From Methylobacterium sp. FF17 (GTDB lineage Bacteria; Pseudomonadota; Alphaproteobacteria; Rhizobiales; Beijerinckiaceae), in contig NZ_CP107532.1 in NCBI RefSeq assembly GCF_025813715.1, positions 3,054,001 to 3,118,000 on the forward strand: DNA of 64,000 nucleotides, given 5' to 3'. The notes below the pieces were generated by a model that had not been told where the DNA came from, made no database searches, and worked only from the letters and a program-made list of their open reading frames with translations. Numbering within the stretch: position 1 is the first letter of the stretch; each line of letters opens with the position of its first letter. This document shows positions 11,458 to 14,467 of this stretch, piece by piece. The translations under genes and the position numbers were made by a program.

Positions 11458-11870
11458 GCCCCCCCTTTATGGATGGCCCGCCCCTCACTGGGCTTCACTG
11501 CTAGGTTTGCAGTGTGGCTCACACGAGGGATGGAGCGGACCGATGGCCATTGCGATACTCGGGATCGATCTGGGCAAGAACAGCTGCAGTGTGGTCGGGC
11601 AGGATGCGACCGGTCGGGTCGTCCTGCGACGCCGGATGCGACGCGAGACGGTGATGACCTTTGGCGCGACGCTTCCACCTTGCATCATCGCCATGGAGGC
11701 GTGCTGTGGCGCGCATCACATGGGCCGGGCGCTCGCCGCTCAAGGCCACACCATCCGGCTGATGTCGCCGGAATACGTGCGCCCCTACGTCAAGGCCCAG
11801 AAGAACGACGACCGTGACGCTGAACCGCCCCGGGATTTTCGGAGGCTCCAACACTTGAGAGACTGGAGCC

Positions 11871-12197
11871 ATGACGAAGCATATCCCACCCTTCTCCCCT
11901 GAGGTCCGCGAGCGGGCGGTCAGGATGGTCCAGGAGCATCAGGGCGAGTACGGCTCGCCCTGGGCCGCGATGCAATCGATCGCTGCCAAGATCGGCTGCT
12001 CGGGCGAGACGCTGAGGAACTGGGTTCGGCAAGCCGAGCGGGACCAAGGTCAGCGGGCTGGCCCGACGACGGACGAGCGCGAGCGGATCAAGGCGCTGGA
12101 GCGGGAGGTTCGCGAACTCCGGCAGGCGAACGAGATCCTGAGGAAGGCGAGCGCGTATTTTGCGATGGCGGAGCTCGACCGCCCGTTCAAACGATGA
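11871..12197 (+). CDS. IS3-family OrfA (helix-turn-helix)
   Basis: 108 aa. The N-terminal helix-turn-helix reads [20 protein letters not shown] and [19 protein letters not shown]; a leucine-zipper-like coiled coil follows ([20 protein letters not shown]). OrfA of IS3 elements binds the terminal repeats and, through -1 frameshifting, contributes the N-terminus of the OrfAB transposase. orfB starts in the -1 frame with a 4-base ATGA overlap; I do not see the usual A6G slippery run, so coupling may be by reinitiation. Confidence 0.9.
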
Positions 12198-13099
12198 AGG
12201 CGTTCATCGACGAGTACCGCGATGCCTACGGGGTCGAGCCGATCTGCAAGGTGCTGCCGATCGCCCCGTCGACATACCATGCTCATGCCGCACGGCGCGC
12301 CGATCCCAGCAGGCTCCCGGCACGGGCCCGGAGCGACGCGGCGCTGATGGTCGAGATCCAGCGCGTGTTCGAGGCGAACTTCCACGTCTACGGCGTACGC
12401 AAGGTCTGGCGGCAACTCGGCCGGGATGGGATCAGGGTGGCCCGGTGCACCGTCGCCCGACTGATGCGGGCGATGGGCCTGAAGGGTGTCGTGCGGGGCA
12501 AGACGGTGCGGACGACGATCCCCGATCCGGCAGCGAAGTGCCCGCTCGACCGGGTCAACCGCCAATTCAAGGCCCCGCGCCCGAACGCCCTGTGGGTCGC
12601 GGATTTTACCTACGTCGCGACCTGGTCCGGCTTCGTCTATGTGGCCTTCGTGATCGACGTCTTCGCCCGCCGCATCGTCGGCTGGCGGGTCTCTCGAACC
12701 GCCCGCGCCGCCTTCGTGCTCGATGCCCTGGAGCAGGCCCTGCACGAGCGTCGCCCCCTCCAGGGCGGCGGGCTCGTGCATCATAGCGACAGGGGCTCGC
12801 AGTACCTGGCGCTGCGCTACACCGAGCGGCTCGTCGAGGCTGGGGTCGAGCCCTCCGTCGGCAGCGTCGGCGACTCCTACGACAATGCCCTTGCCGAGAC
12901 GATCAACGGCCTATTCAAAGCCGAAGTCATCCTTCGGTGCGGCCCATGGCGGAGCTTCGAGGCCGTCGAGTACGCCACCCTCGAATGGGTCGACTGGTTC
13001 AATCACCGCCGGCTGCTCGAACCCATCGGGAATATCCCTCCCGCCGAAGCCGAAGCGCACTACTATGCCCAGACCGAGGTGCAAGCCTTGGCCGCTTGA
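12194..13099 (+). CDS. IS3-family OrfB (DDE integrase core)
   Basis: 301 aa. The HTH_21-type N-terminus ([16 protein letters not shown]) is followed by the rve DDE core: first Asp in [13 protein letters not shown], second in [15 protein letters not shown], and Glu in [19 protein letters not shown]. The C-terminus [19 protein letters not shown] is typical for the family. All three acidic residues are present and the frame is intact, so the copy may be active. An identical protein is encoded at 19842-18937 and a diverged one at 38900-37995. Confidence 0.93.
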
Positions 13100-13892
13100 T
13101 CCAAACCAGACAGCCTCCGGGAAACCCGGGGCGGTTCACGCCGAGGCGATCGCAGAGGCTGCGACGCGTCCGACTATGCGGTTCGTCGCGCTGAAGTCGG
13201 AAGCGCAGCTCGACATGCAGACTCTGCACCGGGTGCGCGACCAGCTCGTGGGCGAACGCACGGCCTTGATGAACCAGATCCGGGCTATCCTGCTGGAGCG
13301 TGGCCACATCGTCCCGCAAGAACGTGCCAAGCTTGCCGCCAGGCTGAACACCCTGCTCGATCCCGACACCGCCGCGGACATCACGCCACGAATGCGCAGC
13401 CTCGTGGCCGACGTGCGGGAACGTTGGCAGTCCCTCGACGAACGCATCGCAACGCTCGATGGCGAGTTCGCCGAACAGGCCCGGACCGACGAGAGTGCTC
13501 GCCGGCTCACCACCATCCCGGGCATCGGTGCACTCAACGCCACAGCGCTGATTGCGGCGATCGGTGACGTGGCCACCTTCGCCCGCGGGCGTGATCTGGC
13601 GGCCTGGCTCGGCCTCGTGCCGCGGCAAGTCACGACTGGCGGACGACCCAAACTCGTCGGCATCACCAAGCGCGGCAGCAAGTACCTGCGCAAGATGCTG
13701 ATCCAGGGTGCACGGGCGGCGATGCCGACCCTTCGCAAAAGCGATACGCGGATCGGCCAATGGCTCCGGGGCCTGCTGGCGCGGGCGCACGCCAACACCG
13801 CCGTCGTTGCGCTAGCAGCCAAGATGGCTCGGACCGTCTGGGCGCTGCTGCGCCACAAACGCGTCTATGAGCCGGCGGCGGTGGCTGCCTGA

Positions 13893-14129
13893 ACCGAGCT
13901 TGGTCGGCGAAGCCTTCGTCGGCCTCACCATGTCTGCGAGCGGCGAGAGGAAGATGGCCTGACAGTCGATCGGTGTTCTGGAAGCCTCTGGCGTAAAATG
14001 GCGCTCGACGCCGCCCCCTTTATGAGGACCAGGACGCGCGGATCTCCATCTTGGCCAACGGCATCGCCGAAAGGCCGGATACGTTTATGCAGACTGCTCA
14101 GACCAGCGGATCATCAGCCACTTGCGGAC
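13893..14129 (+). ncRNA. Candidate bridge-RNA region of the IS1111-type IS110 (copy A)
   Basis: This 3' non-coding segment lies between the transposase stop and the right inverted repeat. It contains CCCCCTTTATG at 14014-14024, identical to 11461-11471, which spans the target flank, the TT core and the first bases of the left end. It also contains ATACGTTTATG at 14079-14089, which equals the junction formed if the right end (ATACG), core TT and left end (TATG) are joined in a circle. IS110 elements encode structured RNAs whose two loops pair with target and donor, and IS1111-type members place them at this end. The exact RNA ends and fold are not determined. Confidence 0.5.
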
Positions 14130-14149
14130 GGGGCGGGCCATACGTTACC

Positions 14150-14467
14150 GCCATGCGCCGAGCGGTGCGACTTGACGTAGGTACTGTCGATGGCGGCCGC
14201 CTCGCCACCCCATCCGCCCTTGGCCAGCGCGGTCAGCATCGCCCGCCAAAAGTCACGGCGGGACCAGCGATTGAAGCGGTTGTAGACGGTCGTGCGCGGA
14301 CCATACGCTGCCGGGCAGTCGCGCCAGCGGCAGCCCGAGGTCAGCACGTGCAGGATGCCGGAAATGACCTGCCGATCGTCGTTCCGTTCCGGCCCAGGCT
14401 GGTTCTTGGGCATGAACGGTTCCATCACCGCCCACTGCTCATCCGAGGGCCAGAACAGGTCCGCCAT
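14150..14467 (-). pseudogene. IS5-family transposase, N-terminal half (orfA-like)
   Basis: Starts MADLFWPSDEQWAVMEPFMP, continues GILHVLTSGCRWRDCPAAYG and GEAAAIDSTYVKSHRSAHGG, then enters the IS110 end. The Asp in IDSTYVK is the first DDE residue. The same half is found at 31589-31910 (plus) and starts again at 63952. It is an IS5-family, probably IS427-group, transposase, a group that often encodes its product in two overlapping frames; the interruption falls where the second frame would start. Confidence 0.85.

Follow-up and report, generated by a model that had tools for sequence, protein, structure and literature searches.

Introduction

What directs a mobile element to one particular point inside the transposase gene of another? 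The question is raised by the 64-kb window analysed here, meaning the whole stretch of DNA at its full length, in which two copies of an insertion sequence, A and B, lie antisense to IS5 orfA genes. A preliminary description of the window had placed both copies at the same point and in the same relative orientation of these genes, which the sequence of both copies bears out, and had proposed that the non-coding end of the element holds a candidate natural bridge RNA. The positions of all parts discussed below are collected in Table 1.

Results and Discussion

Apart from an IS3-type element within the transposase gene of A, whose two open frames overlap, the copies differ at 1 position over the left 352 and the right 1006 bases. 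The transposase of B, 342 aa long, matches PF01548 and PF02371 above cut-off. Its length lies within the 330–350 aa given for IS1111 DEDD transposases, and its translation contains GLVPRQVTTG, an instance of the motif GL-P----S(T)G of the IS1111 C-terminal domain (PMC11187229). The inverted repeats are subterminal with short IS1111-like extensions, ACG on the right and ATGG or ATGGG/A plus the TT core on the left, and a non-coding region (NCR) follows the transposase gene as in the IS1111 group, extending 237 bases past the stop in A. These features assign the element carried as A and B to the IS1111-type insertion sequences.

Table 1. Positions of copies A and B, their parts and their IS5 targets in the window.
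Feature	Position	Strand	Basis
Copy A, IS1111-type element minus core, split by IS3-type insert	11469..14144	+	ends read; aligned to B
TT core, left junction of A	11467..11468	+	single core use from empty sites
TT core, right junction of A	14145..14146	+	empty sites
Left subterminal inverted repeat ATGGCCCGCCCC of A	11473..11484	+	sequence
Right subterminal inverted repeat GGGGCGGGCCAT of A; ACG comes next, at 14142–14144	14130..14141	+	sequence
IS3-type element within transposase gene of A, CGC on both sides	11821..13138	+	open frames 11871–12197 and 12194–13099
3' NCR of A, predicted seekRNA/bridge RNA source	13893..14129	+	downstream of transposase stop; fold conserved in relatives
Right-target guide TCTGGCGTAAA of A	13987..13997	+	covariation with right flanks
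Cap hairpin of A, separating both target guides	13998..14013	+	conserved fold
Left-target guide CCCCCTTTATG of A	14014..14024	+	covariation with left flanks
Donor segment ATACGTT of A (right end plus core)	14079..14085	+	recurs in 131/132 sites
IS5 orfA part beside A (target, upstream half)	14147..14467	-	PF13340
IS5 orfB part beside A (target, downstream half; IS5 type unlike that of B)	11034..11466	-	PF01609
Copy B, uninterrupted element; cores 31910–31911 and 33267–33268	31912..33266	-	sequence
DEDD transposase gene of B, 342 aa	32164..33192	-	PF01548 and PF02371
Right-target guide of B	32059..32069	-	sequence
Left-target guide of B	32032..32042	-	sequence
Donor segment ATACGTT of B	31971..31977	-	sequence
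IS5 orfA part beside B	31589..31909	+	PF13340
IS5 orfB part beside B	33269..33702	+	sequence; 110-aa stretch of translation matches PF01609

A transposase-like gene in two overlapping frames adjoins A (14604–15663); its assignment to the IS630 type is a guess from sequence. Elsewhere in the window, positions 57960–58165 form a perfect tandem duplication with a 102-base unit, and two identical arrays of 27-base period (47488–47549 and 48439–48500) lie 951 bases apart, which hints at a larger direct repeat.

The mode of entry was read from unoccupied targets. For one target each from IS5, IS3 and IS630, the flanks were joined and used as a query against the genus genomes; the 30 best loci per target were then aligned, one of those for IS630 being the occupied query itself. 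Read by eye, unoccupied IS5 copies carry a C-run, TTT, N and CCGCC or a close variant, with TTT in 29 of 30, and unoccupied IS3 copies a T7 run in 23 of 30; most unoccupied IS630 copies have CCCC-TTTTT. Also by eye, the A-run of the unoccupied IS3 slippery site (L290–L319) ranges from 4 to 10 among copies, 7 being the commonest length. For all three targets, comparison of empty sites with joined flanks gives insertion without target duplication and with one TT core. Since no fit of the joined flanks is obtained unless one T stands before the single-use core, entry is read as ...T-TT-N..., with ATGG as left and ACG as right end. For IS5, where the empty window is AAAGGGGGG and the target-site sequence for the element CCCCCCTTTACCGCC, this reading gives ...CCCCCCT-TT-NCCGCC as target and predicts ATACG-TT-ATGG as circle junction. 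The junction put forward earlier, ATACG-TT-TATGG, is one base too long by the empty sites and was discarded. The letters after ATACGTT vary in relatives (TGTG 30, TATG 26, GACG 21, TTCG 16, and others), so that the longer junction match in the NCR is partly due to chance.

Relatives were gathered by a DNA search of 111 genus genomes, with a match in 79, by a protein search of named genomes, from which 80 of 225 loci were kept, and by right-end pattern searches that matched in 30 of 111, 9 of 397 (order-wide) and 44 of 50 genomes. For a separate plasmid set, 28 regions were taken from 40 hits among the matches listed, of 413 matching records; 21 of these regions gave guide/flank pairs new to the first set, while the other 7 were already present or not parsed (L239). 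Once identical combinations of guide and right flank had been collapsed, 132 sites remained (first set 111, plasmid set 21), which are not all independent, as they comprise 128 distinct 16-base right flanks and a natural variation of 66 distinct right guides.

The NCR contains a hairpin between two variable stretches, the 5' one matching the reverse complement of the right flank and the 3' one matching the left flank and core; the top-strand target match thereby lies 5' of the bottom-strand match, which is the seekRNA-like order. Both guide-like segments quoted in the preliminary description were found, at 14014–14024 and 14079–14089, and again in B. The former is the left-target guide and stands as claimed, though the account was incomplete in that it missed the right-target guide. 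Guides and flanks covary across the first set: with one row per distinct guide, which limits but does not remove the kinship of rows, right guides scored 4.98 of 7 on their own flank against 3.16 on reshuffled ones (55 rows, two registers allowed for own and reshuffled flanks alike), and left guides 3.87 of 6 against 2.02 (23 rows), values that 0 of 2000 reshufflings reached in either case. Displaced flanks behaved as a null (right by 7, 13, 20 and 30 bases, left by 6, 10 and 15). The signal is also present in subsets, namely 18 rows with GGC[GT] and CCC guides (4.83 against 4.27), 16 rows without A6 or CCCC (5.38 against 2.79) and 19 left guides without CCC (3.68 against 2.03), each with 0 of 2000. 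The plasmid set, for which the expectation had been fixed beforehand, gave 5.20 against 3.08 for the right and 4.50 against 1.99 for the left guide (20 rows; 0 of 5000 each). Both sets argue for the candidate bridge RNA proposed at the outset. For A and B themselves, the left guide is exact on its flank; the right guide GGCGTAAA fits the flank GGCGGTAA imperfectly, needing a shift or two mismatches, which counts against the explanation favoured below, and two relatives that share this guide, L033 and L070, have flanks reading GGCGGAAA, on which it fits better.

A conserved fold, whose absence the preliminary description would have held against a guide RNA, is present in the NCRs of the relatives. 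In a sequence alignment of 49 dereplicated NCRs (from 95 parsed, of 115 with a guide), the consensus fold reaches −36.1 versus −4.0 ± 2.5 for 25 column-shuffled controls, and 12 of its 34 pairs change on both sides in at least 2 sequences each. It places the target guides opposite each other in an internal loop that is bounded by an 11-pair stem on one side and by the cap hairpin on the other. The donor segment ATACx-TT is found in 131 of 132 sites, including one with ATACA in both right end and NCR. In the search for a right donor CATAA occurred in 24 of 132 sites, and no clear right-donor guide was found among the 132. An Rfam scan of the B region returned 0 matches at the gathering score and four weak matches below it near B; no Rfam model is known to us for the predicted RNA. 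Both the Rfam result and the lack of a clear right-donor guide weigh against the explanation favoured below.

The targets are largely transposase genes of other insertion sequences. The 132 sites fall into IS5 (48), IS630 (20), IS3 (15), IS3 reversed (1) and none of these (48), the last class including decayed flanks. In L246, for example, similarity to IS5 begins only at 216 bases from the junction, beyond the threshold of 130 bases that we chose for assignment. The target profiles came from fragments of the flanks; ten representatives were labelled with Pfam, and two of these fit only HTH_32 below cut-off or DDE_3. In the plasmid set (IS5 7, IS630 2, IS3 2, none 10) the majority of IS genes expected beforehand was barely reached with 11 of 21, and since these same flanks had supplied the family profiles, the plasmid labels depend in part on the first set. 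This narrow plasmid majority and the 48 of 132 sites without assignment weigh against our favoured explanation. The element lies antisense to the target gene at 83 sites and sense at 1. In public annotation, the neighbour of the element is named an IS5 family transposase at L236, L238, L240 and L241, the latter two being one site. Over both sets, CCC+A guides (59 sites) go with IS5 in 41, IS630 in 5 and none in 13; A6 guides (31 sites) with IS3 in 10, IS3 reversed in 1, IS630 in 11 and none in 9; other guides (25 sites) with IS3 in 5, IS630 in 1, IS5 in 1 and none in 18; and sites without a parsed guide (17) with IS5 in 6, IS630 in 3 and none in 8. Lineages with other guides mostly insert elsewhere.

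At the 51 sites where both target halves are readable, the frame changes in 46, by −1 in 36 and by +1 in 10, and is kept in 5, three of them IS5 sites. The downstream frame is −1 in 22 of 30 IS5, 7 of 11 IS3 and 7 of 10 IS630 sites; with 5 of 51 in frame and 10 at +1, a −1 window is not required. At the junction, A3–5 followed by G4–7 is found in 33 of 35 IS5 sites, and A7G in 12 of the 28 IS3 and IS630 sites with a left flank. Frameshifting is used by the IS1, IS3, IS5 and IS630 families (PMC5009743, review), and a study of Paracoccus describes a conserved frameshift motif for IS407-group IS3 and IS427-group IS5 elements (PMC3281130). We infer from the frames that slippage occurs here and that the insertion point is the orfA/orfB frameshift window. 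An earlier aside that the target may be the site where IS427-group elements switch frame was correct, and the frame change extends to IS3 and IS630. Target families and frame changes together suggest that the known seekRNA/bridge RNA mechanism is repeatedly aimed at slippery sites of unrelated insertion sequences.

The host genome (5.99 Mb, 7 contigs) carries the element or its fragments in six places, which adds C, D, E and F to A and B; more distant relatives occur at 68–71% identity among the matches listed. A, B and C adjoin the same IS5 type at one point, and D and F lie at the homologous point of other IS5-type genes: the right flank of D clusters with IS5 orfA fragments (...LDSASVPAK), and F, next to a third IS5-type gene (...LDGASITDK by visual reading), is a remnant at 82%. 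E, a 94% fragment, occupies a non-IS5 site. Copies at unrelated sites had been named as evidence against the proposal, and E is one, but its guide GGCGGAAA differs from that of A and matches its own site (flank GGTGGAAA) better.

Across the IS5 and the element, B and C are at least 99% identical, and the orfA half beside A is 99.7% like that of B. The orfB half beside A belongs to another IS5 type, and in most genus loci it pairs with an orfA only ~70% like that of A; because it goes elsewhere with a different orfA, the IS5 at A (11034–14467) is, judged by its sequence, chimeric at the element, either through recombination between copies in two IS5 types or through insertion into a hybrid. A, B and C may share descent, so that the case for independent hits is made by D, F and the relatives and not by A versus B. 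The earlier statement that the point was hit twice is weakened to this extent, two independent hits not being proven by the 64-kb window alone; the claim about the target is unaffected. C and D (L021, C1:3117000-3123000; L022, C1:3157000-3163000) have in common a ~1.5-kb insert at the same element point, with different right flanks. Among the matches listed, the host genome holds four IS5 copies of the A/B/C type, those at A, B and C being occupied; the fourth (90%; L025, C1:2226500-2230500) is unoccupied and carries GGTCAAGGGGGG where the others have GGTAAAGGGGGG.

A transposase tree of 97 rows (88 different), made with a quick method that leaves 26 of 85 inner branches open, unites 46 CCC+A rows with the row of a close guide variant (L236) in a 47-row branch (SH-aLRT 97), outside which a single CCC+A row (L130) is placed. 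The fewest changes on this tree are 29 for the target class and 58 for the right guide, counted with no shuffled control. Two near-identical transposases (L033, L034) have different right guides and reside in different IS5 types.

We regard it as highly probable, on the strength of these patterns, that this IS1111-type element chooses its sites by a guide RNA from the NCR and that the sites chosen in this clade are mostly the orfA/orfB slippery windows of IS5, IS630 and IS3. A structured RNA from the 3' NCR would display a pair of short guides within a single internal loop, one guide being complementary to the right target on its top strand and the other to the left target on its bottom strand. 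Together with the DEDD transposase it would direct strand exchange around the TT core, by which the circular element enters without duplication. The guides would mostly be set to the A-run/G-run sequences that form the conserved slippery window, and guide changes would shift the element between slippery sites or off them. Production of the RNA, binding by the transposase and their action are predicted by analogy with other IS1111 elements, for which others have measured them.

If the transposase protein alone picked the sites, the NCR matches would be traces of target and end sequence carried in the element, and copying of flank sequence into the NCR would indeed also yield guide/flank matches. 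We consider this extremely unlikely, as L033 and L034, with near-identical transposases and different right guides, occur at sites in line with the guide each has. Covariation in the loop stem extends beyond the guides, and IS1111 seekRNAs have been shown experimentally in other elements (PMC11187229). It is likewise very unlikely that A, B and C stem from one insertion multiplied with its IS5 or by recombination, with the guide matches in the window arising by chance. The near-identity of B and C and the orfA half that A has in common with B fit such a history; D and F in other IS5-type genes and the foreign orfB half at A speak against it, and the covariation over the relatives refutes it for the family, though not for A, B and C alone.

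A reading to which we assign a substantial chance, if somewhat below even, takes the guide RNA as real and merely fitted to A-runs next to G-runs, the windows being a by-product of composition and copy number with no specialisation, because in GC-rich alphaproteobacteria few such runs exist other than at slippery sites and at conserved Lys-Gly-Gly codons. In keeping with it, single-frame IS5 genes are also targets (the three in-frame sites above), and the Sphingobium lactosutens A6 guide GGGCAAAAAAA is found in four non-IS sites (L127, L128, L129, L133). Against it, CCC+A guides also match the letters GGCG/GGCA past the runs, their sites are IS5 or IS630 in 46 of 59 cases, and the host genome has a single occurrence of the 12-base site CCCCCTTTNNCGCC, in an unclassified position, equal to its reversed control. 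As specialisation and by-product have the same mechanism, their odds overlap.

The chances are about even that the full reading holds, namely that this IS1111 clade is specialised on the programmed-frameshift window common to unrelated transposons and could act as a natural brake on rival insertion sequences. Slippery sites recur in IS5, IS630 and IS3, so that one guide design would reach many multi-copy hosts that the cell can spare. If specialisation is true, each insertion removes the orfAB fusion and leaves orfA; with orfAB lost and orfA kept, the victim may become a source of repressor, and in this way the clade could brake its rivals. Addressing by frameshift window may limit the targeted transposons, and suggests that a coding feature shared by unrelated transposons can serve an RNA-guided element as a reusable, host-sparing address. 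The clade also offers a large natural experiment in the re-aiming of guide RNAs with readable targets, useful for the target code, core and loop rules of IS1111 elements.

Comparison with Known Systems

RNA-guided target choice by IS1111 elements is already known, as is an element aimed at IS3 transposase codons, ISEc21 (PMC11187229); what seems new is that three IS families have the frameshift window as a common address, and that natural re-aiming takes place on such a scale. The passages and sections consulted from open-licence papers contain no report of guide-directed IS110/IS1111 insertion at frameshift windows.

A named member of the A/B clade is ISPmar4 from the Paracoccus marcusii plasmid pMARC3, an IS1111-group element without direct repeats (PMC3832669); its 12-bp repeats are ATGGc/tCCGCCCC, and it is among the matches to the element, outside the site counts (L239). 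According to PMC11187229, ISEc11, ISPa11, ISKpn4 and ISPst6 resemble A and B in their DEDD transposase, subterminal repeats, downstream NCR and lack of duplication, and have the top-strand match 5' of the bottom-strand match. Natural re-aiming, as in the A/B clade, is described there for ISEc11/ISXne4. These elements differ from the clade in their targets, attC sites, REP and GTGAAAATACTG, and in that RNA and transposition have been measured for them.

The bridge RNA of IS621 from the IS110 group (PMC11208160) is likewise a guide RNA with internal target and donor loops around a core; it lies in the left end, whereas that predicted for A and B lies downstream, with a donor loop readable only in part. 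IS4321/IS5075 are IS1111 elements that also target other transposons, at the terminal inverted repeats of Tn21-type transposons instead of coding frameshift windows. The earlier remark that targeting the inside of IS5 transposase genes is less usual holds but for one precedent, the IS110-type ISEc21, whose guide RNA is likewise aimed inside the transposase genes of another IS family. Unlike A and B, ISEc21 has an upstream NCR with reversed guide order, and is aimed at codons that surround the second D of DDE in one IS family, whereas the A/B clade addresses frameshift windows in three (PMC11187229).
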